DNA from: an uncultured Bacteroidales bacterium
GTDB taxonomy: Bacteria > Bacteroidota > Bacteroidia > Bacteroidales > P3
DNA length: 42,157 bases
Assembly (NCBI GenBank): GCA_900319865.1
Contig: ONQD01000019.1
Coordinates: forward strand, 1 to 42,157
Direction: 5' to 3'
Shown: positions 27,699 to 41,780 of the stretch, one piece after another
Layout: each line of letters starts with the position of its first letter
How positions within the stretch are numbered: the first letter of the stretch is position 1
Position numbers and translations under genes: made by a program
The notes under the pieces: generated by a model
Seen by the model: only the letters and a program-made list of their open reading frames with translations
What the model was told of the DNA's origin: nothing
Databases searched by the model: none

Positions 27699-30260
27699 TT
27701 ACTCTTGAGGGGTTTCGGGGTTGTTTTCCGGAACTTCATTCTCCCCTATTTCGCCCTCAGGTAGTTCGTTGGTGTTATCAACTGTTTCCTCTTCGTTCTC
27801 GGTGGGCACTTTGGTGATGGATGCTATGTAATCCTTTCCTCTCAAATTGATGAGTTTCACGCCCTGTGTGTTGCGGCCCAACACCCGCAGTTCGCTGACT
27901 TTCATGCGGATGGTGATGCCTGAACGGTTGATAATCATAAGGTCTTCCTCGTTGCTGACATTGGTCAGGGCGACGATGCCGCCGGTCTTGTCGGTCACCT
28001 TCATTGTGGTGACGCCTTTGCCTCCGCGGTGTGTCGGGCGGTAACCCTGATTCTTATCGGGGTCGTATTTCAGCTGGGATTTCTTGCCAAAGCCGTTTTC
28101 GCTGACTACAAGGATGTCCTCGTTTTCGTTGTTGGTGCATATCATGCTGATGACTGCATCGTCCTCGCCGTCGAGAGTGATACCCTTAACGCCCGAGGCG
28201 CCACGTCCCATTTCGCGGAACTCATCTTCGGTGCAGCGCACCACCTTGCCGTTCTTGGAGGCAATGAGGAGCTCGCTGTTGCCGTCGGTGAGGCATGCGG
28301 TGACTAGCTCGTCTCCTTCGCGGATGCCCACGGCTATGATGCCGTTAGTGCGCGGACGCGAATATGCTTCGAGCGAAGTCTTCTTGACGATACCTTTCTT
28401 TGTGCACATCACAATGAAATGGTTTTTGAGATATTCCTCGTCGGTTAGAGATTCCACATTGACATAGGCTTTCACCTTATCAGTCGGATCGATGTTTATC
28501 ATGTTCAGGATAGGACGGCCTTTGGAGTTTTTCTCACCCTCAGGCACTTCGAAGGCGCGCATCCAGTAACAGCGACCTTTCTCTGTAAAGAAAAGCAGGT
28601 GATTGTGGTTGGTGCACATAAAAATGTGTTCCACAAAGTCCTCACTTCGCACAGAACTGCCCTTCGAACCCACACCGCCACGGGTCTGGGCGCGGTATTC
28701 GTTCAGAAGGGTACGTTTCACATAACCCATATGCGAGATGGTGATGACCACCTCATCGTTGGGTATAGTATCCTCGATTTTGAAATTGGATGCTTCGTAC
28801 TTTATTGCTGTACGACGGTCATCGCCATATTTCTCTCTGATTTCGGTCAGCTCGTCTTTGATTACGCCCATGAGAACGTTCCGGTCGCCTAAAATTTCTT
28901 TGCAACGGGCAATAAAACGAAGTTTTTCGTCATATTCATCTTGCAGTTTCTGACGCTCCATGCCGGTGAGCTGACGCAGACGCATCTCGACGATGGCTTG
29001 TGCCTGCAATTCGCTGAAACCCCATCTGTCCATCAGTCCCTGACGGGCCTCGTCCACGGTCTTGGATTTCTTGATTAGCTGAATAATATCGTCGATAATG
29101 TCAATGGCTTTCAGGAATCCTTCCAGTAGGTGGGCTCTTCTCTCGGCCTCGGCCATATCGAACTTGGTGCGGCGGGTCACCACATCTTCTCTGTGCATCA
29201 CGAAGTTCTCAATCAGATCCTTCAAGTTCAGCAACATAGGCCGTCCATGAACCAAAGCGATGTTGTTTACCGCGAACGAGCTCTGCAATTCACTCAGCTG
29301 GAATAGTTTGTTCAATATCACATTGGGCACTACATCGTGGCGCAGCATATACACCACGCGGGTACCTTCTTTGTCCGACTCATCGCGTATGTCGGTGATG
29401 CCGACAATCTTGCCGTCTTTCACCAATTGGGCCTGACGCTTAATCATCTCGCTTTTGTTCACCCCGTAAGGGATGGAGTGTGCAACAATGATGTTTCTGC
29501 CTTTGTTGTCAACATCTATCGAGGTGTCGGCTCTCAGCACCACGCTGCCTCGGCCTGTGGTATATGCGTCACGCACGCCGTTGTATCCGTAAATGATGCC
29601 GCCACCCGGGAAATCGGGGGCTTTAACATATTGCATCAGCTCCTCAACGGTGATATTGCTGTTTTCGATATAGGCGATACAGCCGTCAAGCACTTCACGC
29701 AGATTGTGCGTGGGCATGTTTGTGGCCATACCCACCGCAATACCATTCGAGCCATTCACCAACAGGTTGGGCACCCTGGCGGGCAACACAGTGGGCTCTT
29801 CGCGCTCGTTGGTGTAGGTTGGCATCATGTCCACTGTATCCTTTTTAATATCAGCCATCATCTCGTTGGCAATCTGCTCCATGCGGCACTCGGTGTAACG
29901 CATGGCAGCAGGGCTGTCGCCATCAATGCTACCAAAGTTTCCCTGACCGTCCACCATCGGGTATCTCATATTCCAGGGCTGGGCCATACGGACCATGGCA
30001 AAATAGACCGACGAGTCGCCGTGAGGGTGATACTGACCCAAAACTTCACCCACCACAGTGGCCGATTTGCGGTAGGCTGTATTGTAGAACATGCCCATGT
30101 CGTTCATTGCAAAAAGAATTCTCCGCTGCACAGGTTTCAAACCATCTCTGACATCAGGCAACGCACGCGATACGATTACAGACATTGCATAGTCAATATA
30201 AGCGCTTTTCATAGTAGTTTCGATATCTACGCGCGTTATTTTCTCGTTTTCAGAAATCAT
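27699..30260 (-). CDS. gyrA: DNA gyrase subunit A
   Basis: An 853-residue type II topoisomerase subunit that breaks and rejoins DNA to introduce negative supercoils with GyrB. The catalytic tyrosine is Tyr122 in AMRYTE, with the same numbering as E. coli. The quinolone-determining segment reads [10 protein letters not shown]: Ser83 is retained but the position of E. coli Asp87 is Phe87. The C-terminal wrapping domain has the GyrA-box core HRGGKG, preceded by Thr rather than Gln. An acidic, low-complexity tail of about 35 residues follows (E/N/P-rich). A TAnnTTTG promoter lies 65-72 bp upstream. Confidence 0.98.
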
Positions 30261-33169: not shown

Positions 33170-33196
33170 AAATTGGTGTTTTAATATCTTAGAGTT

Positions 33197-33240
33197 AGAG
33201 CCACGAATTATGAGATTCATTCGTGGCTCTTTATTTTATT
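33197..33240 (+). terminator. Rho-independent terminator of clpC
   Basis: A perfect 11-bp stem, GAGCCACGAAT at 33198-33208 paired with its complement at 33219-33229, with a 10-nt loop and a T-rich tail (TTTATTTTATT). It lies 28 bp past the clpC stop codon. Confidence 0.9.
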
Positions 33241-33715
33241 ACTTATCCTGTCCTTCCTCAGTTGCGGCAGATTTGCAATCTGACGCAAAATATTATCAGG
33301 ATTTGCAATCCGGAGTACAATAATCTTATCTAAATAAGCTAAATAAATATGTATTACATTAACCTTTACTACTTTGACAGTTGTCGAGTGGGCTGATGTC
33401 TTTTCACGACAATATATAACACATTTTCATAGATACACTACGATATTGCCTGGATAACGAGTGCCTGCAAAAATATGCTCGAGTAATGATGAGTGACTCC
33501 CGTCCTTGTTGGACGTTGTCTTCATAAATTTTTGAATGATGAAATCAAAAATTGATTATTAATCCTAAATAATAAGTTTCGGATTGCACATCCGAAACAA
33601 CGAACACCGTCTGGAACATCTGCCGCGACGGGATTATAATGTGCCGTAATAAGAATGTTCCTCCTATCTTTTACTCAAAGAAGAAAGTTTTTTTCGTCAT
33701 GTAAAAAAAAATGTG
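33241..33715. other. Intergenic region with REP-like palindromes
   Basis: About 475 bp without a credible gene between the clpC terminator and the promoter at 33716. Its outer part is occupied by the palindrome-bearing segment 33262-33626; between the palindromes it is AT-rich and shows no ORF of note. Confidence 0.6.
33262..33626. repeat. REP-like hairpins framed by a 9-bp inverted repeat
   Basis: The segment begins with GCGGCAGAT (33264-33272) and ends with its exact complement ATCTGCCGC (33618-33626). Inside are three palindromes with a TGC-containing loop: 33262-33288 (12-bp arms, one mismatch), 33299-33311 (GGATT-TGC-AATCC) and 33576-33598 (GTTTCGGAT-TGCAC-ATCCGAAAC). The common loop and related arms suggest one palindrome family, similar to REP sequences mobilised by tyrosine transposases, or the remains of a miniature element. 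No transposase is encoded here. Confidence 0.7.
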
Positions 33716-33723
33716 TATTTTTG
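33716..33723 (+). promoter_or_regulatory. Putative -7 element upstream of the small ORFs
   Basis: TATTTTTG followed by CA, matching TAnnTTTG. It is the only promoter-like box before the small ORFs and the protease gene and could drive all of them. Confidence 0.5.
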
Positions 33724-33817
33724 CATCCGATTTCGAAAGAGAAATCACGAAGCGTTATGCCTCAACTTGCAGTTGAAAACCTGAGAATCTTTCAAATGTT
33801 ACGCAAGGGAGAGTATA

Positions 33818-34042
33818 ATGGTTTCGCGCGTTATGCGTGGACTGTTTGCTATTTCTCGTAACAAGGTATTTTCTCAGGACCCTCAACTGAAGGAGTGGTA
33901 TATCAGTGCCACGCTTCTTTTTGTTGTTGGCCTCTATTGGTACTGGAGAAGCACAAAAGATAGTTTTTATGTCAAAGAACGAGTTGATTCAGACAGCAAA
34001 AGAAATTATTTCTCGAGTATACCCACAGAATATGGGCTATAG
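33818..34042 (+). CDS. Possible small single-span membrane protein
   Basis: A 74-codon frame with an ATG start, a basic N-terminus and one clear hydrophobic segment (WYISATLLFVVGLYWYW, residues about 27-43) followed by a charged tail. It overlaps the start of the 33969 ORF in another frame, and a 34-codon frame from ATG 33757 overlaps its beginning. It may be a real small protein, a decayed gene, or chance. No family is recognised. Confidence 0.25.
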   Translation: MVSRVMRGLFAISRNKVFSQDPQLKEWYISATLLFVVGLYWYWRSTKDSFYVKERVDSDSKRNYFSSIPTEYGL

Positions 34043-34247
34043 TACATTCGTGGATGTAGTAAGTGAATCTGATGAGAAACTATTATCAGAATGGACTCAT
34101 CAACTTTATTTATATTTGCTAAATATAAAAAATCAAAAAGTCACATCCGCCATAGAGTCATTATTTCCTATTCAGAATGGCAACAGGATACGAAAAGCCC
34201 ATCTACAGGCAATTATTGATATTTTACTTGCAAGTAATGAAGATTAA
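33969..34247 (+). CDS. Small hypothetical protein
   Basis: A 92-residue frame beginning MSKNELIQTAKEI, predicted largely helical and amphipathic, with no signal peptide, cysteine motif or recognised domain. The same frame is open to a GTG at 33906, which would add 21 mostly hydrophobic residues. Composition (AT-rich, Ile/Asn/Lys-rich) matches the following protease gene, which starts 64 bp downstream, so the two were probably acquired together and may be co-transcribed. Coding status rests on composition and length alone. Confidence 0.5.
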   Translation: MSKNELIQTAKEIISRVYPQNMGYSTFVDVVSESDEKLLSEWTHQLYLYLLNIKNQKVTSAIESLFPIQNGNRIRKAHLQAIIDILLASNED

Positions 34248-34310
34248 ATAACTAATTCAATGGCTCATACTTATATAAAAAATATTCTATCTCAACTAAT
34301 AAAAAATAAA

Positions 34311-35462
34311 ATGAACAAATATAAACTTTTTATTCTTCTTTTATTTATACCAATAATCTCTACTGCTCAGATTACCCGATCGACATACAGATCTGGAAAC
34401 GAAATATATCATGTCCCAAATTATTCAGAACAACAAGCTCGATTTTATTTAGATAATGCAAAAGAATTGGATCCTGTTGAAGGGATATGGATTAGTGGGG
34501 AAGATAAATATTCTATCGAAAAAGATTTTGATGGATTTTCAAGAAAATCAGATTATTATAGAGCAGTTCTCTTACATTCAAGCCAATCTAATCTTTCAAA
34601 GAATAATGATATTCGCTTTTTCCTTAAGAAAGGAACAAGTACAAACATTTATGAAACAACATATTATAGCTGCAGCAATTTAAACTTTAGCTCTAATGGT
34701 TTCACTTATGAAATTATACCCACAATGACTATTTCATTACTCAACGGTCCAACCCTAACAATAAAATTTTCGGACAACGAAGAATATACATTTTACAAAG
34801 TATACTCTCCTCAAAATGTCCAACCAAAAGAGGATAAAAAGAGTATGTGGACAGGTACGTGTTTTGCAATTGACAAAAAACATATTGTTACAAATTATCA
34901 TGTTATTCAAGATGCCAAACTCATTAATGTTAAAGGTATGTATGACATTTCTAATAATGGCCATTCAGCTGAAGTTGTGGCATCTGACAAGGTGAATGAT
35001 ATAGCGATATTAAAAATAACCGATAACCAATTTCCTGGTTTTGGAAACATTCCATACTGCGTTAGTAGCAGAATGGCAGATGTTGGTGAAGACATATTTG
35101 TATTAGGGTATCCATTGACACAAACGATGGGAAACGAAATAAAACTGACTAATGGAATAATAAGTTCTAGAACTGGATTCCAAGGTGACATAGCAAACTA
35201 TCAGATGTCAGCACCCATTCAACCTGGTAATAGTGGAGGCCCGATGTTTGATAACAAAGGAGATGTAATTGGTATCGTTTGTGCTCATCATGCTGGAGCT
35301 GAGAATGCTGGTTACGCCATTAAAATCTCATATTTGAAATTGCTTATAGAAAGTACTGGACTAAACATTGCCCTTCCCAGTAAAAATACCATTTCTTCGC
35401 TTTCTCTTCCTGAAAAGGTAAAACGTCTGAGGGACTTTGTCTTATATATCGAGTGTAGGTAA
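34311..35462 (+). CDS. Exported trypsin-like serine protease (S1/DegP-like fold)
   Basis: A 383-residue protein with a signal peptide (1-20, ending STAQ). Residues 21-170 form a unique N-terminal region; 175-350 carry the protease with catalytic His197 (TNYHVI), Asp230 (NDIAIL) and Ser308 (PGNSGGP). No PDZ domain follows, unlike DegP/HtrA. The frame is open to an ATG at 34260, but that would put 17 residues before the signal peptide, so 34311 is preferred. The gene is markedly AT-rich and uses A/T-ending codons more than its neighbours, suggesting horizontal origin. It could be a standalone secreted protease or part of a defence/interaction cassette; no partner is visible. Confidence 0.88.
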   Translation: MNKYKLFILLLFIPIISTAQITRSTYRSGNEIYHVPNYSEQQARFYLDNAKELDPVEGIWISGEDKYSIEKDFDGFSRKSDYYRAVLLHSSQSNLSKNNDIRFFLKKGTSTNIYETTYYSCSNLNFSSNGFTYEIIPTMTISLLNGPTLTIKFSDNEEYTFYKVYSPQNVQPKEDKKSMWTGTCFAIDKKHIVTNYHVIQDAKLINVKGMYDISNNGHSAEVVASDKVNDIAILKITDNQFPGFGNIPYCVSSRMADVGEDIFVLGYPLTQTMGNEIKLTNGIISSRTGFQGDIANYQMSAPIQPGNSGGPMFDNKGDVIGIVCAHHAGAENAGYAIKISYLKLLIESTGLNIALPSKNTISSLSLPEKVKRLRDFVLYIECR

Positions 35463-35699
35463 AACAATTAACAATACGTTAGTTCAGGATAACATCAACG
35501 TGGTGTAAACAACTTATTGCTTGATTGTCTGATTGCTTGATTGTTTGAGTTTATTGACCGCGTCAGCGACTCAAGCATTTAAACAATCAAGCATTCAAGC
35601 ATTCTTTCAAGCATTTTCTTTTAGTTTTACCTTTAATCCGACACAACGAGAAAATGGCTGGCGCATCACACGTCAACCATTTTTTTCAATTTTCATTTT
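35463..35699. other. Gap between protease and outer-membrane barrel genes, with iterated TTGCTTGATTG motifs
   Basis: 237 bp between converging genes. A 16-bp unit is tandemly repeated at 35517-35532 and 35533-35548 (one mismatch). GCTTGATTGTTT at 35535-35546 is exactly complementary to 35581-35592, and TCAAGCATT recurs at about 35571, 35595 and 35607. The whole can fold into a long imperfect hairpin and may act as a terminator for converging transcription, although the T tract is poor. Confidence 0.55.
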
Positions 35700-37919
35700 T
35701 CAATTTTCACTTTTCAAGCGGGCCTTGCTCTCGAGTTCCATCTTGCCGAGGCGCACGGTGACGCCGAAGGTGATGTAGCGCGAGCTATAGCGGGTGGTAT
35801 TGCTGCTGGAGATGTAGGGGTTGGTGTTGGCCGAGGAACTCGAATAGGTGTTGAAGACATCCTTGACGTTGAGGTAGAGCGATATGTGACGGTCGAGCAG
35901 GTCGGCACTCACGCCGAGGTCGGTGGTGAAGAAGGGGTCGTAGCTGCTGAGGAAGGCGATTTGCCGGGTGGTGTAGTTGACATTGCCAAACACTTGCAGC
36001 ACGTTCCATAACTTGCCCCACGCGTTGAGTCGCAGGTTGCCCGCCCATAGGTTGTCATCCACCCATTCGCCAGGGCGGAACTGGCTGTGGTAGCCCATGT
36101 GTACGGCGCGGGCTGAGAGACGCAGGTTGAACATGGCGGTGGGGCGATAAGTGAGATTTAGGTCGGCACCTGCGTTGTGGCTGCTGCCGATGTTGTAGGG
36201 CTGGCTGAAAGAGACCTCGCGACCGTAAACGGGGTGGTACGCCACATCGACAAGAGCGCCCGGCTCGTCGGTGTTTGCCTTGTAGTAGAGGTCTATCCCT
36301 ACCGAGCCGAAGCCCTCGAAGAACTTGTTCCAACCCCCTTCGAGGTTGTGAGTGTGGCTGGGAAGCAGGTCGGGGTTTCCGATTTCGTAGCTCTCGTTGT
36401 TGAAAATGATGAATCGCGTGAGGTTGGGAGCCGAAGGCGTGGTGGTGCGAAGGGTGTAGCTGAGCGTGAAATTGTGCATCGAAGGGGTGTGGTAAGAGAG
36501 ATGGACGGAGGGTGTGGGGACGAGGTAGTTTTCGTGCGACACCTCAGTGGTATAGCCTGTGTAGGTGGCGGTTCCGGTGCTTTGTTCCAGTCTCAAGCCC
36601 ACCTTGGCGGCGAAATTGCCAAAGTTGCGTTTGAGGGTAAGGTATCCGCCAAACTCCTCATGGCGGTACGACTTGGTGTAGCTCTGCAGCGTGTCACGAC
36701 GGTTGCCGGGCAGTGTGTCGCGGGTGTAGGTGCGTAGGCTTGGGGTGTGGTAGTCGCCGGTTAGGCCCGCCTCCAGCTCCCAATGCTCGGCAAAGGGCAG
36801 CGAGTAGCCCACCTCGGCAGAGAGACCCACGCCGCCCCTGTTAATACCTAAATGGCGCACGGTGTAGTCAAGGGCTGGTTGGCTGAGGTATTGGCGTTGC
36901 TCGGTACCGTCGGAAGTGTAGTTGAATCCATTGGCAGCGGTGCGTATCCACAGCATCTGCCCCTTGTCGTCGAGACGATGGGAGAAATGCAACCCGCCAT
37001 AATAACCCACCTGGGGTATGGATGATGTGCTGGTGGAGCGATAGCTGTAGTCGCCCGGATTGTAGATGAGTTCGTGCCATTGTATGTCGGCGGACGACTC
37101 GCCACGGTACCACGACGGGTATGCCCCGCCCCAGAAACTGAGGGAGCGCATGGTGTCGAAATCGTAGTTGCCGCTCAGGTAGAAATAGCTGCCATGCCTC
37201 CAGTTGTCGCTATGGGCTGTGTAGGACTTGATGGTGGAGGTGTCGCCTTGCGGAGTGAGCAGGGCGGAACGGCCCGACTGGTCACTCCACGTGTGGCTGT
37301 AGTCGTATTCGGCATAGAGGTTGATGGAGAACTTCTTGTTGCTATAGACATACGAGAGCCATGGCGACACCTGTGGGCGATGGTTTCCCGTGGCTCCGAT
37401 GCTGATGAACTCGTTACGCAGAATCTTCTTGGATGTGATGATATTGACCACGGGTCCGCTGCCGCCGTAGCGGGCAGAGGGGTTGGTGATGACCTCGATT
37501 CGGGCTATGCTGTTGGCTGGGAGGGTCTTGATGTATTGGCGCAGATTCTCGCCACTGAGGTTAGATGGGCGGTCGTTGATCCACACCTCCACGCTTTGTG
37601 AGCCCCGCAGGGTGATGTTGCCTTCGGCATCAACCTCCACGCCCGGAGCATTCTGGAGGGCATCGCTGGCGGTGCCGGTCTGCACACTGGGGTCGTCGGA
37701 AGTGTTGTAGATGTGTTTCTCGCCGTCGACGGCATAGAGTGGTCGGTCGGTGGTGATCTTCACCTCTTCAAGAGCCTTGACCGAAGGCGAGAGGTAGAAA
37801 CTGGTGTCTGAAATGGTGGCAGTGGTGTCCTGCGAAACCCTTACGGTGTCGTTGACCTGGGCGTAGCTTACGCCTGCTACTGTCATCAGTGACAGCAGCA
37901 ACATGATTTGCTTTGTCAT
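35700..37919 (-). CDS. Outer-membrane beta-barrel protein, TonB-dependent-receptor-like (OMP_b-brl_3 type)
   Basis: A 739-residue outer-membrane protein. A signal peptide ends near YAQ (21). A plug-like domain spans about 45-165, with DALQNAPGVEVDAEGNI, the INDRPSNLSG segment and ARIEVITNPSARY leading into the barrel, which shows alternating aromatic/polar strands to the end. The usual N-terminal CarboxypepD_reg-like domain is missing: the plug starts soon after the signal peptide, with EEVKIT in the place of EVVV. No SusD-like partner is adjacent. It is the last gene of the BlaI-M56 operon (12-bp gap from the lipoprotein gene), so its synthesis is probably induced by that sensor. Ligand unknown. 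Confidence 0.88.
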   Translation of the reverse strand: MTKQIMLLLSLMTVAGVSYAQVNDTVRVSQDTTATISDTSFYLSPSVKALEEVKITTDRPLYAVDGEKHIYNTSDDPSVQTGTASDALQNAPGVEVDAEGNITLRGSQSVEVWINDRPSNLSGENLRQYIKTLPANSIARIEVITNPSARYGGSGPVVNIITSKKILRNEFISIGATGNHRPQVSPWLSYVYSNKKFSINLYAEYDYSHTWSDQSGRSALLTPQGDTSTIKSYTAHSDNWRHGSYFYLSGNYDFDTMRSLSFWGGAYPSWYRGESSADIQWHELIYNPGDYSYRSTSTSSIPQVGYYGGLHFSHRLDDKGQMLWIRTAANGFNYTSDGTEQRQYLSQPALDYTVRHLGINRGGVGLSAEVGYSLPFAEHWELEAGLTGDYHTPSLRTYTRDTLPGNRRDTLQSYTKSYRHEEFGGYLTLKRNFGNFAAKVGLRLEQSTGTATYTGYTTEVSHENYLVPTPSVHLSYHTPSMHNFTLSYTLRTTTPSAPNLTRFIIFNNESYEIGNPDLLPSHTHNLEGGWNKFFEGFGSVGIDLYYKANTDEPGALVDVAYHPVYGREVSFSQPYNIGSSHNAGADLNLTYRPTAMFNLRLSARAVHMGYHSQFRPGEWVDDNLWAGNLRLNAWGKLWNVLQVFGNVNYTTRQIAFLSSYDPFFTTDLGVSADLLDRHISLYLNVKDVFNTYSSSSANTNPYISSSNTTRYSSRYITFGVTVRLGKMELESKARLKSEN

Positions 37920-37931
37920 AATATTATTGGG

Positions 37932-38648
37932 TTATCTTATTGTTATAAAGGTATCTGGAATATAAAAACAATGGGTGTCGAGCGTGTATACGCTGCGAGG
38001 TGAATAATACCGGTCTGTGGTATCGCCCTCCCTGTTCTTCTGGACAATGCAATCGAGAGCGATGCGGCCATGTCGGTCGGCGATGAACAGCTGCGGTGAG
38101 CCTTCGTACTGGCAGCGGAAGGGATGGTCGGCGTGGAACATGTGGTTGGCCCAGGGGGTGAACACCCCGGAGTCGGTGTGCTCCCAAGCGGGGTTGTAGT
38201 GCATGTAAACGTCCTTCATGTCATAACCCAAAGAGGGGAGCAGGTCGCGGTAACGCTTGGCAAAATGGACGATGTTGCCGAGGGTATCTTCCACCAGGTT
38301 GCCTACGGAATCGGGGATTAGGCGGTGAAGCCAGTTGAAACCCGCCACAAGATAGAACCGCCACTGGGTGGTGTCACGGTTGGCGTACATCGCGGCCAGC
38401 TCGTTGCGGAGGTGTTCGAGGCAGGGCTTGCAAAGGATGTCGAAGAAATAGACCACCTTGTAATGTGTTGTGTCGCTCTTGACAAGACGGGTAATCTCGT
38501 CGGTGGTGAGCATGGAGGGTTCCACGGCCTTGACCTGTTCAAAGGTTAGCACAGGTTTGTCCTGCTCCTCGGCTGGGTGACTGTTGCACCCGGTGAGTGC
38601 GAGTGCAACGGTTGCCAGCAGTGTGATATGTCTTAATGCTTTTGCCAT
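37932..38648 (-). CDS. Thioredoxin-like lipoprotein
   Basis: A 238-residue lipoprotein: signal peptide with lipobox LTGC, lipidated Cys21. After a short linker, YKVVYFFDILCKPCLEHL carries a CxxC pair (Cys73, Cys76) at the end of a beta strand, as in thioredoxin-fold proteins; the motif CKPC is unusual but redox-competent in principle. The later GSPQLFIADRHGRI resembles the cis-Pro/beta3-beta4 region of TlpA-like proteins. It lies 5 bp downstream of the M56 gene and 12 bp upstream of the barrel gene, all in one operon. Redox activity is inferred. Confidence 0.78.
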   Translation of the reverse strand: MAKALRHITLLATVALALTGCNSHPAEEQDKPVLTFEQVKAVEPSMLTTDEITRLVKSDTTHYKVVYFFDILCKPCLEHLRNELAAMYANRDTTQWRFYLVAGFNWLHRLIPDSVGNLVEDTLGNIVHFAKRYRDLLPSLGYDMKDVYMHYNPAWEHTDSGVFTPWANHMFHADHPFRCQYEGSPQLFIADRHGRIALDCIVQKNREGDTTDRYYSPRSVYTLDTHCFYIPDTFITIR

Positions 38649-38653
38649 AGCTT

Positions 38654-40357
38654 TTAGTGTTCAATCTGTTGGGCTAATGAGTCGGCGTAGTGTTTGTTGA
38701 TGGCCTTCAGTGTCACTTCCAGAATGAAGCGGTCGCCCTCCATAAGAGGATTAAAACGACTGGTGGTGTCGTAGAGTTGGCGGGCGTTGGGGTTGATGGT
38801 GTTGTTATCAAAATGCCACCCTTTGTAGAACTCCCTTTCGGTCTCACCCGACTGGGTTTTGTACTCGTGTACGGCTGTGAAGTCGGAGACAGTGGTCGAG
38901 CCCAGCAGACGATTCTTGTTGCTCCAATCGACGGGACACTCTGAACCGTAGGAGACCGTCACTTGGGGATAGATGGTGTCGGTCACAGTGCGTATGTTAA
39001 ACTCAATTATCTCGTCACCCACTTTTTTTGAGTTGGAAACTGTGACGGTGTCAATGCGGTAGCGATACGTGGGCAGACCTTTGAGTGCCTTGACTATCCC
39101 TTCGATCGGGTCGGCGTTGACAAAGCGTAGCTTGATGCTGTCGCCGTCGCAATGGAGGGTTTCGAGCGTCATGTCGAGCCATGGATTGCCTGTGCTGTCA
39201 AAAAGATGGAGGCCGTCGTCGTCAATCGTGTAGGAAAAGAGTTGCGCGTTTCCTGCTGTGTCGCGGGAAAGGATGTGCAACCGTCCGTCGCGGTGGAAGC
39301 AAAACAGACGGCTTTCAAGTCCCATGAACTTATTGCATTGGAGGGTGGGTTCAGCAGGGTTGTCCGACTTGAGTTCGATGGAACTTACTTCGTAAAAGCC
39401 ATTCAACGTTTGGCGAGAGACACATCCCGCCAGCAGCACCATGAACGCGATGGGCAGCACGATGAGCGGCAGTAGCCCTCCGTGGCGGGAGCGGCGCAGT
39501 GCCATCATGGCGATGCGTTTCTTCACCAACGAGTAGTCGAAAGTGTTGCCTATGGCACTATACGGTTTGCCGCTCACCTGATGGTAGAACAACTCGGCAT
39601 AGGCGGCTCCGCTATCGGTTGCCAGCATTGCGTTGTCGGCCTGGTATTCATGCACACGCTTCAATTCACGCTGGTAGAGATAAACAAACGGGTTGAACCA
39701 TAGGACAACTTTGACCGCCTCACACAACAGGAGGTCGAAGGTATGGCGTAGGCGCACATGTACCATTTCGTGTCCGATAAGCTGCTGCATCTCGGTTGGG
39801 TTGAATCCGTTGCGGCCTAAGATGATATGCTTGCCAAAGGAGTAGGCTGGAGTGTCGTCATTCAGTACGCTGACCTTGACACCGTCCTGCATCTTGTATG
39901 GCAGTCGGCCAAGGCGGCGTTGTAATCTTGCCAGTCTTAGGGTCAGGAGTATCATCGTGACAGCAACACCTACCCAATAGATAATGGGCAGAATGTCCAT
40001 CACTTTGTCGAGGATATTCGGGGTGGTCTCTCCTTCAGACAGGATGATTCGTCTCATTTCGTTATTATCTTGAGTAAGCTTGATTTCCGACACGCCACTT
40101 TTAGTATTGGAATAAGTCATAGCCATGCCGTCAGGCGTGGTGTTGTAGGCCAACTGAGCCGTTTCTGCGGCATCGTTGCCGTCATAGTTGGCCTGACGTA
40201 ATAGGGGCAAATGGATAAGGGGAAGCAGCAGAGACAGCAATAGGGTACCCAGCAAATAGTAGCGCACCATGGAGAAACGGGTTTCGCGCCGCATCAGCAG
40301 CCAGTAGGAGCCGAAGAAAAGCACAGTGCCAATGGTGGCAAGGAGGAGGTATTTCAT
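38654..40357 (-). CDS. M56 family membrane metalloprotease (BlaR1/MecR1-like sensor)
   Basis: A 567-residue signal-transducing protease. Membrane segments lie near 3-20, 33-52, 121-142 and 294-311; the zinc site is HEMVH at 196-200 with Glu237 (HEYQAD) as a likely third ligand, on the cytoplasmic side as in BlaR1. Residues 312-567 form the extracytoplasmic sensor. It lacks any penicillin-binding-protein motif (no SxxK/SxN/KTG triad) and instead begins with an all-beta, lipocalin-like pattern (NGFYEVSSIELKSD, then FCFHRDGRLHIL). The ATG overlaps the BlaI stop by 4 bp. The inferred role is ligand-triggered cleavage of the adjacent repressor; the ligand is not a beta-lactam on this evidence. Confidence 0.9.
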   Translation of the reverse strand: MKYLLLATIGTVLFFGSYWLLMRRETRFSMVRYYLLGTLLLSLLLPLIHLPLLRQANYDGNDAAETAQLAYNTTPDGMAMTYSNTKSGVSEIKLTQDNNEMRRIILSEGETTPNILDKVMDILPIIYWVGVAVTMILLTLRLARLQRRLGRLPYKMQDGVKVSVLNDDTPAYSFGKHIILGRNGFNPTEMQQLIGHEMVHVRLRHTFDLLLCEAVKVVLWFNPFVYLYQRELKRVHEYQADNAMLATDSGAAYAELFYHQVSGKPYSAIGNTFDYSLVKKRIAMMALRRSRHGGLLPLIVLPIAFMVLLAGCVSRQTLNGFYEVSSIELKSDNPAEPTLQCNKFMGLESRLFCFHRDGRLHILSRDTAGNAQLFSYTIDDDGLHLFDSTGNPWLDMTLETLHCDGDSIKLRFVNADPIEGIVKALKGLPTYRYRIDTVTVSNSKKVGDEIIEFNIRTVTDTIYPQVTVSYGSECPVDWSNKNRLLGSTTVSDFTAVHEYKTQSGETEREFYKGWHFDNNTINPNARQLYDTTSRFNPLMEGDRFILEVTLKAINKHYADSLAQQIEH

Positions 40358-40758
40358 TGCTGGTCCTCCTTACCTTTGCGCTTTTCTTCAATGATGCGGC
40401 TCAAAGCCTCCAGTTCCTCATTAGTCACCTCTCCCCCATCGAGGAAGAAGGATACTAACGAGGTGTAGGATGAGGAAAAGTAGTTCTTCATCAGCGTGCC
40501 CAGCATCCGTCCCTTGTATGCCTCGCGACTGACGAGGGGATAATACTGATTGTTGCCGTTAAAGTCCTTGTGTGCCACAAAACCCTTCTGCTCGAGGATG
40601 CGGATTTCGGTGAGCACGGTGCGGTATGCGGGCTTGGGTTCTTCGACGGCGGCAGCGATGTCGCCTGCAAAGCCTTTGCCTACTTGCCACACGGCTTGCA
40701 TCACTTGCTCCTCGGCCTTGGTGAGCGTTGTGGTGGGTTCTTGTTTCTTTCTTGCCAT
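40354..40758 (-). CDS. BlaI/MecI/CopY family repressor
   Basis: A 134-residue winged-helix repressor. The DNA-binding domain covers about 8-80 (TLTKAEEQVMQAVWQ, then AYRTVLTEIRILEQKGFV). The C-terminal dimerisation helix region contains SLVSFFLDGGEV at 100-111, which aligns with the segment of staphylococcal BlaI that is cut by BlaR1 (between Asn101 and Phe102 there, Ser103-Phe104 here). The frame is open upstream to 40821, but MARKKQ at 40758 is the family start and the upstream sequence is operator-rich. It overlaps the M56 gene by 4 bp and heads a four-gene operon. Confidence 0.93.
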   Translation of the reverse strand: MARKKQEPTTTLTKAEEQVMQAVWQVGKGFAGDIAAAVEEPKPAYRTVLTEIRILEQKGFVAHKDFNGNNQYYPLVSREAYKGRMLGTLMKNYFSSSYTSLVSFFLDGGEVTNEELEALSRIIEEKRKGKEDQQ

Positions 40759-40785
40759 AGATGTTAGATTTTGAATTAAACCTAT

Positions 40786-40801
40786 GATTAAATATTTAAT
40801 C
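40786..40801. promoter_or_regulatory. Perfect 16-bp palindrome in the blaI leader
   Basis: GATTAAATATTTAATC is self-complementary over its full length and lies 28-43 bp upstream of the blaI start codon, inside the predicted leader. It could be a third regulator site or chance in AT-rich DNA. Confidence 0.4.
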
Positions 40802-40818
40802 ACCATCAAAACGCCAAA

Positions 40819-40835
40819 CACAAAATATTATTGTG
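40819..40835. promoter_or_regulatory. Putative BlaI operator 1, CACAA-N7-TTGTG
   Basis: Inverted repeat with CACAA and TTGTG arms and a 7-bp spacer; the arms extend to 7 bp (AACACAA/TTGTGTT, 40817-40837). It has the same architecture as the site at 40873, with centres 54 bp apart. BlaI/MecI operators elsewhere are dyads with ACA...TGT cores, consistent with this. Confidence 0.6.
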
Positions 40836-40872
40836 TTAATATGATTATTTTTTTAATCCAATAGACAAAAAT

Positions 40873-40889
40873 CACAATAACATATTGTG
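40873..40889. promoter_or_regulatory. Putative BlaI operator 2, CACAA-N7-TTGTG, over the transcription start
   Basis: Second CACAA-N7-TTGTG dyad. It begins 3 bp downstream of the -7 box of the blaI promoter and therefore covers the predicted transcription start, the classic position for repression by occlusion. Confidence 0.65.
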
Positions 40890-40892
40890 CAA

Positions 40893-40900
40893 CAAAAGTA
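40893..40900 (-). promoter_or_regulatory. Putative -7 element for the BlaI-M56 operon
   Basis: TACTTTTG on the minus strand, matching TAnnTTTG. The start is predicted near 40887, giving a leader of about 130 nt that contains operator 1 and the 16-bp palindrome. Confidence 0.6.
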
Positions 40901-40910
40901 TAATATGCAA

Positions 40911-40955
40911 AAAAAAATGAAATCCGCGGCAAAAATATTATCATTTTGCCGCGGA
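40911..40955 (-). terminator. Rho-independent terminator after the broken lipoprotein gene
   Basis: A perfect 12-bp stem, TCCGCGGCAAAA at 40923-40934 with its complement at 40944-40955 and a 9-nt loop; on the minus strand it is followed after five bases by a run of nine T. It separates the lipoprotein gene from the BlaI operon promoter. Confidence 0.85.
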
Positions 40956-40973
40956 AATAGGTGTGTATTTGCG

Positions 40974-41780
40974 TCAAAGAAGGTGGAATGAGGTTTGCAT
41001 TATGGGGACTGTCGGGCCAGTATGGGAGAGCCCATAGGTTTTCTTTAGGTCGTCCTCGCGATGGAAGGTCGTCCTCGCGATGGAATTGCAGTGAGCCGCC
41101 GATGGTGTCTGTGGTGCCGTAGATAAGCGTGCTGTAGTCAAGAGTAATGAGGTCGGTAGTGGGGTCGTAGGTGAAGGGGTGTTGCATGCCGTTAATACGG
41201 ATGGAGCCAGAGTGTGTCGTGCTGTCGTATTGCCAGAGGAAAGAGGTGCCTTCACAGGTGCTTCCCGCACAATAGTTAATCTGACCACCCCAACCATACT
41301 CCCAGAAGTCTAACCCCCATTCCACAGGCATCAATGTGTCGCCTACGGTCAGTTGCTGTTCTGCTTCCCATGATGTTCTGACAGGAAAGACATATTGCTC
41401 CTTACCTTCAGGGTATAGAACTGTATAGCCACCAAGGGTTACATTGCCGTCGCCTACAAACATATTCGTTGAGATGGTGTGTGTGGTGGAGTCGTAAGTA
41501 AACAGGGAAGAGTCACCCATGTTTTCACTACCGTAGGATTGGCGGCGATGACAATATCTAAATGAAGTGTGCCAGTGCTGTCGGTGAGGAAGTCGATACT
41601 CCACATGAGGGTAGCGGGATAGCCTTGATAGTTGTCATCGTAGCTTCCCTCCCATGAGGTTCCAGCCAATGAGACGGTTGGTGCAGTGTCGGTTTGGGGC
41701 TGCGGTTCGGGTGCGGGCTCTTTTTTACAGGCAGCGAAGAGCAAGAAGGCCGCCATCGTGATGAATGCAATTTTTTTCAT
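40974..41780 (-). pseudogene. Lipoprotein gene disrupted by two frameshifts
   Basis: The gene starts at 41780 with a signal peptide and lipobox LFAAC (Cys18), followed by a Pro/Glu/Gln-rich linker and a beta-rich domain (LAGTSWEGSYDD, TLMWSIDFLTDSTGTL). Around 41527-41545 the sensible reading moves to another frame (continuing MGDSSLFTYDSTTH); one extra A in the AAAA run there would restore V-V-K-N-M-G-D-S-S. Near 41047-41084 a 19-bp tandem duplication shifts the frame again; removing one unit gives REDDLKKTYGLSHTGP and a stop at 40974. The intact protein would be about 260 residues, resembling small Bacteroidales lipocalin-like lipoproteins. Either a true pseudogene or, for the A run, a sequencing error. 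Confidence 0.78.
41047..41084. repeat. 19-bp perfect tandem duplication inside the lipoprotein gene
   Basis: Units 41047-41065 and 41066-41084 are identical. Because 19 is not a multiple of three, the duplication changes the reading frame and replaces the last ~25 residues with an extension running through the downstream terminator and into the blaI promoter. Confidence 0.95.

Follow-up and report, generated by a model that had tools for sequence, protein, structure and literature searches.

A four-gene set on the minus strand of contig ONQD01000019.1, from an uncultured Bacteroidales bacterium (assembly GCA_900319865.1), appears to form a self-contained signalling cassette, in which a BlaI repressor and an M56 membrane protease with a lipid-anchored sensor domain would control an outer-membrane barrel; we give this reading as a whole a probability of about 0.5. 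The window, that is, the whole stretch of DNA analysed (42,157 nucleotides, positions 1 to 42,157 of the contig), encodes in order of transcription a BlaI/MecI-type repressor of 134 residues (40354-40758), an M56, BlaR1-like membrane zinc protease with a C-terminal domain (567 residues, 38654-40357), a thioredoxin-like lipoprotein with a CKPC motif (238 residues, 37932-38648), and a plugged outer-membrane barrel of the TonB-dependent type (739 residues, 35700-37919). The initial annotation of this DNA had described a 4-base-pair (bp) overlap between repressor and protease genes, followed by gaps of 5 bp before the lipoprotein and 12 bp before the barrel, and we recovered exactly this layout, with all four genes on the same strand.

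The BlaI, M56, and barrel identities given there also held, each lying above the Pfam cut-offs. The repressor scores 93.5 bits with PF03965 (cut-off 22.6) and aligns with MecI (1sd6, E 3.5e-9), the protease scores 46.3 bits with PF05569 (cut-off 31) and aligns with BlaR1 (8exp), and the barrel scores 178.3 bits with PF14905 (cut-off 27), 65.6 bits with PF00593 (cut-off 27), and 38.8 bits with the Plug family PF07715 (cut-off 23.9). For the M56 assignment, the profile score is accompanied by the HExxH motif.

BlaR1-type receptors are, to our knowledge, known mostly from beta-lactam resistance. Here, the BlaI-protease core precedes a barrel of the nutrient-receptor type, occurs with two sensor domains, and is seemingly mobile together with its operators. 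The lipobox, the operator pair, the sensor exchange, and the apparent cassette transfer discussed below are points that the initial annotation had not seen, and among the titles and abstract beginnings listed from the open-licence literature, we found no paper describing any of them, nor one on Bacteroidota BlaI-M56 systems; excerpts of PMC12204202 and PMC12578637 did not touch on the subject either.

Proposed mechanism

From the genes and their order, the operator boxes, the conserved lipobox, the two sensor types, and the conserved barrel, all directly visible in the DNA, we infer the following scheme of repression, cleavage, lipidation, and topology. BlaI dimers bound to two operators around the promoter would keep the operon low. 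The M56 protein would be a zinc protease of the inner membrane whose active site faces the cytoplasm and whose C-terminal domain lies outside, and a signal on that domain would free the protease to cut BlaI near Ser103/Phe104-Phe105, such that the derepressed operon would supply more of the barrel, usually along with the redox lipoprotein. The last M56 helix would double as a lipoprotein signal peptide, Cys312 being lipidated and signal peptidase II cutting just before it, and the sensor domain would thereby become a lipid-anchored partner of the protease instead of forming one chain with it. If the sensor is indeed a lipoprotein cut from its receptor, the picture of signalling along one continuous chain fails for this group.

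In the core BlaR1 system, as far as the excerpts of PMC7593790 and PMC9834060 describe it, the protease inactivates BlaI upon a signal. By analogy, the M56 protein quite probably inactivates BlaI here as well, which would release the operon through its paired operators, and the barrel is likely to be the main output.

The Staphylococcus aureus BlaR1/BlaI and MecR1/MecI systems resemble the cassette in their repressor family, their adjacent HExxH-bearing M56 protein, and its long C-terminal domain, and BlaR1/BlaI also shares a Phe at the autocleavage position and a signal-peptidase junction after the last helix. Unlike them, the cassette has no conserved penicillin-binding motif set, carries a lipobox instead of an SpsB site, has operator boxes of the form GATTA-N6-TAATC, and has as its likely output a barrel, often with a redox lipoprotein, rather than a beta-lactamase or PBP2a.

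Paired operator boxes and the repressor

Two boxes of this form stand ahead of BlaI on the minus strand, box 1 (GATTAAAAAAATAATC) at 40843-40858 and box 2 (GATTAAATATTTAATC) at 40786-40801. The pattern GATTAWWWWWWTAATC, scanned across the 2.9-megabase genome, occurs at three sites, two of which are this pair, 57 bp apart. Cassettes were examined in 26 genomes, 19 with the sensor domain found here (type A) and 7 with a second one (type B), and all 26 have two putative boxes before BlaI. In 24 of them, the boxes form a strict pair (53-60 bp spacing, 9 or more of the 10 core letters matching) within 200 bp upstream, against a shuffled-sequence expectation of at most 0.03 sites per locus; in G348, the pair lies farther upstream than 200 bp, and in G467, where it was recognised by eye, one box has a 7-base gap and the other a central CG. 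Genus-wide, the operator pattern with its leading G was found in 17/17 cassette genomes and in 3/42 others (G297, G300, G339). BlaI-M56 pairs of a further kind, whose C-terminal part is TonB_C-like, have no such box in any of the six loci for which 200 bp were examined, nor in the 63 bp of G434.

Paired operators before BlaI fit a single regulated transcript, and it is very probable that BlaI represses the operon through the two boxes. With operators this rare, the pair would also lend itself to a clean reporter in the search for the ligand. The longest BlaI reading frame, as called mechanically, begins at GTG 40821; ATG 40758 is the more likely start, because box 2 falls between the two.

The cleavage segment of BlaI had been placed at Ser103-Phe104 in the initial annotation, a placement that the alignment did not reproduce, as HMMER sets MecI Asn101-Phe102 on Phe104-Phe105 instead. 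Ser103 is conserved in 31/31 genus repressors shown, residue 104 being F (28) or Y (3), and residue 105 is F in the type A and type B cassettes and L in five of the TonB_C type. BlaI may thus be cut near Ser103/Phe104-Phe105, the alignment fixing no single bond.

A lipobox at the last helix of the M56 protease

Residues 171-303 of the M56 protein align with S. aureus BlaR1 (8exp), placing HEMVH on HEYAH and matching Thr272-Phe273 to the BlaR1 autocleavage bond Ser283-Phe284. The last membrane helix reads RRSRHGG-LLPLIVLPIAFMVLL-AGC-VSRQT, a segment with a basic n-region, a hydrophobic stretch, and, at the helix end, the Cys of the lipobox VLLAGC (L308-L-A-G-C312, 39422-39436, minus strand). 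The 135 M56 matches collected comprised 89 distinct proteins with HExxH, and 84 after dropping 5 without the anchor motif. Within the genus, the helix-end Cys is present in 46 of 47 proteins (strict lipobox in 44), and outside it in 8 of 37 (strict in 3). The strict lipobox, with G or A preceding the Cys, is present in all 21 proteins listed for the barrel-coupled clade, namely 20 with the barrel seen plus that of G321, which is cut by a contig end. Among 30 M56 proteins from the phylum, taken as best family matches and not as a random draw, 14 have the Cys in a wide window and 5 the strict box. Lipobox-like Cys residues at the helix end were also seen in the distant phylum relatives L208, L212, L216, L221, L222, L224, L227, and L231, five of these eight being strict.

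In S. aureus BlaR1, according to the available portions of PMC9834060, the chain is cut by signal peptidase SpsB at the boundary of last helix and sensor, and ligand binding is proposed to increase the protection of this junction from the peptidase. The same junction in this genus looks, from its residues, like a site for signal peptidase II, and we rate the odds that Cys312 is lipidated as slightly better than even.

Several points weigh against such processing. Lipoboxes are normally N-terminal, and here the lipoprotein-like signal begins near residue 295 of a 567-residue protein; lipobox processing is unproven for internal helices of multi-pass proteins, and no paper on it in M56 proteins was found among the matches listed from the open-licence literature. 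The Cys is absent from 16/30 proteins of the phylum sample and from 29/37 outside the genus, and these proteins must therefore function without it. Genus proteins ending in FANC carry Asn before the Cys, a residue found there in 1/72 loosely filtered lipoprotein-like N-termini, and many of the 47 genus proteins are close relatives, so that they do not count independently.

These M56 proteins without the Cys, and the poor lipobox that FANC makes in some paralogues, favour a competing explanation, to which we assign rather less than even odds: that Cys312 is not lipidated and serves helix packing or another modification, and that the sensor, still tethered by the last helix, passes its signal along the chain, in line with the proposal for BlaR1, sensor attached, in the part of PMC9834060 available. 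The pattern around the Cys fits this explanation less well, as G, N, S, or A precedes the Cys in 54/54 rows that have it, and the Cys is itself retained whether the C-terminal part is of type A, type B, or TonB_C. Furthermore, in the 170-residue aligned stretch, the next commonest Cys column is occupied in 16/84 rows, compared with 46, making a conserved disulphide within that stretch unlikely.

A bolder version of the lipid-anchored reading would make the signal peptidase II cut itself the signalling event, with M56 reading the lipidation, cleavage, and removal of its sensor. The cassette would then monitor how lipoproteins mature or are transported, or sense a ligand that shields the lipobox, much as beta-lactams are presumed to shield the SpsB site in BlaR1, and answer with an outer-membrane receptor. 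We consider this improbable; if true, signal-peptidase-II signalling could be a widespread and undescribed type of receptor, given the Cys in 14/30 and the strict box in 5/30 of the phylum sample.

Two types of sensor domain

The C-terminal, sensor-type domain of the window's M56 protein (type A, residues 313-567, 38657-39421, minus strand) was found in 19/119 genus genomes. A free-standing form of the domain was considered and rejected, since every one of the 19 matches lies within an M56 frame (cut or frame-broken in three cases). Among the order-wide M56 matches listed, all but the window's own protein end by query residue 358, and so cover the protease part only.

The initial annotation had noted that the sensor lacks penicillin-binding motifs, and the alignment agrees: the set SxxK / SxN / KTG is not conserved across 15 C-terminal domains. 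The complete trio occurs in 3 of these if order is disregarded and in 1 in the proper order, SxxK at any one column is shared by at most 6 of the 15, and a KTG-type motif is absent from the window's domain. Pfam and PDB sequence searches returned no penicillin-binding protein match for the domain. An ordinary BlaR1/BlaI pair for beta-lactams, placed by chance ahead of an unrelated barrel operon, is thus very unlikely, real as the BlaI and M56 families are and well as the protease part aligns with BlaR1. The M56 protein reaches 24.5 bits with the NCBIfam model blaR1_generic, whose cut-off of 400 lies far above, and the barrel is kept in 23/25 assessable cassettes despite the differing sensor types. 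The lack of a conserved motif set led us to reject the beta-lactam receptor reading.

As to the fold, the first type A member has no Pfam family above cut-off; type A shows weak matches to DUF5640 and DUF5004, that to DUF5640 being below cut-off in the window's domain. Type B, found in relatives, matches Lipocalin_4 weakly in 6/7 (best E 2e-4). Profile searches of the PDB with both types gave one chance-level match, and hhalign, with shallow profiles, detected no similarity between them. An AlphaFold model of the sensor domain from a six-sequence alignment reached a pLDDT of 38.7, with many strands assigned, and was unusable for a fold search.

In the M56 tree (32 proteins, protease part), the type B proteins form one nested group (support 100/100). 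The simplest reading of these sequences is that the sensor was replaced and the repressor, protease, and barrel stayed. For the ligand, we tentatively suggest a redox or metal compound taken up through the barrel, an idea less likely than not to be correct. A lead towards haem is offered by P. gingivalis, where, in the available part of a hemin study (PMC10470040), a gene of the BlaI family, adjacent to an M56 gene, is listed with changed expression and methylation.

The barrel as conserved partner

M56 matches occur in 176/295 genomes of the order and 36/59 genomes of the genus. A barrel follows M56, directly or one gene on, in 23 of the 25 assessable cassettes, that of G321 being left out at its contig end. 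G344 and G314 have no barrel; both branch outside the barrel-coupled clade. Judged by gene order, the conserved unit in the genus is BlaI-M56-barrel. The annotation's expectation of a conserved order therefore stands for these three genes, well beyond close relatives, and fails for the redox gene, which varies; likewise, of its proposed output of a receptor plus a redox lipoprotein, the barrel is a conserved neighbour and the lipoprotein is not a fixed part.

Among the matches listed from the 59 genus genomes, 14 barrels at least 55% identical to the window's all lie beside BlaI-M56, a fifteenth close one (91%) being a contig-end fragment in G331 on a contig without M56; the remaining barrels listed are at most 46% identical. 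In the M56 tree, a single fork unites the 20 barrel-coupled proteins, with support 91/87, which is below the program's starred level. The TonB_C type, with G434 counted in, falls outside this fork (85/74); for the tree, the program issues a long-branch warning.

The barrel shares with TonB-dependent receptors of the OMP_b-brl_3 family (PF14905) a plug and barrel above cut-off, and differs from two paralogues in the same genome (799 and 816 residues) in being shorter at the N-terminus, where these have an extra stretch, and in being set in a BlaI/M56 cassette. EEVKIT, ahead of the plug, is a candidate TonB box recognised by eye.

The window's genome has two M56 proteins. The second BlaI-M56 pair (L109, G000:C75) has a TonB_C-like end, and a leucine-rich lipoprotein of 425 residues is encoded 3 bp downstream. 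Genus pairs of this kind belong to the same families as the cassette pair and have the helix-end Cys in 16/17, and differ from it in lacking the GATTA pair in 6/6 examined and, among those read, in having either a leucine-rich lipoprotein in place of the barrel or no neighbour on the same strand; their end type was assigned by sequence pattern, not by Pfam.

The redox lipoprotein as an optional part

The description of the third gene as a CKPC thioredoxin-like lipoprotein holds in part. The lipobox (LTGC) and CxxC are there, both Cys features being conserved in 9/9 aligned family members, and no Pfam family matches the protein, thioredoxin included. Its profile gave a weak match in the PDB to the thioredoxin-like 2m72 (E 1.1), and hhalign against an AhpC/TSA-domain protein gave E 0.036 with a probability of 1.4%; we call it thioredoxin-like because of the CxxC and its surroundings. 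The copy in the same slot in G351 (L007, 7710-8396), outside the nine-member alignment, is without the CxxC segment. A second copy with CxxC lies after the barrel in that genome (L007, 10572-11369).

The lipoprotein stands between M56 and the barrel in seven genomes, the window's and six close relatives including G351, and a homologue follows the barrel in three (G312, G429, G383). An AhpC/TSA-domain protein takes its place in three others (G341, G322, G324; Pfam run on one), and a lipoprotein of the flavin-reductase type follows the barrel in G342, G405, and G433 or precedes BlaI in G319 and G304 (again Pfam run on one). A gene of one of these three redox kinds thus adjoins 18/23 barrel cassettes. 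The other five (G348, G428, G467, G306, G340) have none of the three, other redox families not having been sought, and count against a redox gene as regular output. Across 118 genus genomes, the lipoprotein family has 15 strong matches (E < 1e-40), and 11 of these belong to cassettes. From this distribution, the redox lipoprotein is an optional part of the cassette.

Outside any cassette, the window's genome has a CKPC lipoprotein paralogue (L236, 4286-5029; G000:C50) beside a gene that looks SPFH-like by eye, and such a gene neighbours the lipoprotein paralogues in 3/4 cases. In L090 and L093, a secreted-looking protein of about 530 residues with CWCGPC follows the post-barrel lipoprotein on the same strand.

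Probable movement of the cassette between species

The four genes and both operators fall within an apparent transferred unit (35686-40933), defined by a blastn match of 91.2% to L005 (G315). Nucleotide identity of the cassette is 92.5% with G451, 91.7% with G469, 91.2% with G315, 88.9% with G311, and 89.2% with G351, compared with 85, 82, 82, 79, and 80%, respectively, for the gene at 27699-30260, which we take from a sequence motif to be gyrA. With the cassette at 89-92.5% and the gyrA-like gene at 79-85% in five species, the cassette has probably moved; the neighbouring clpC-like gene is 77% identical to that of L003 (G451). In the distant G341 and G312, pieces of the cassette are 66-76% and the gyrA-like gene 78-79% identical. 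These values, with one or two backbone genes compared, suggest a recent exchange of the cassette between species. A plasmid search with the first 20 kilobases of the window gave no match.

Such signs of exchange, loss, and sensor replacement would also be explained by a surface-switching cassette, its barrel being a phage, bacteriocin, or immunity target that is kept off unless needed. We hold this to be quite unlikely, as no phage or defence family exceeds its cut-off for the four proteins in Pfam or NCBIfam, the padloc and phrogs libraries not having been run.

The third operator site in the genome lies on contig C19 (12815-12831; L131, 7816-7832) between convergent genes. It was considered as a site serving a second target gene and rejected on account of the convergent genes and of its flanks, which run collinear with G429:C73 and there enclose a complete cassette. 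Based on these flanks and the box itself, the site is probably a scar left by a cassette since lost; aligned directly, this short sequence did not score above chance (48, equal to the best of 100 shuffles, 48).

Neighbouring genes

Upstream of the cassette, a lipoprotein-like gene at 40828-41780 is split into two overlapping frames of 108 and 258 residues; its counterpart in L003 (G451) is one frame of 281 residues, pointing to a frameshift or an assembly error in the window. On the other side, about 2.5 kilobases between the clpC-like gene and the barrel (33171-35691) hold a trypsin-like protease gene (34260-35462), and the corresponding gap in L003 is under 200 bp. Among the near relatives are genomes derived from metagenomes under the labels Bacteroidales or Bacteroidetes; the titles of two mention rumen or reticulum.

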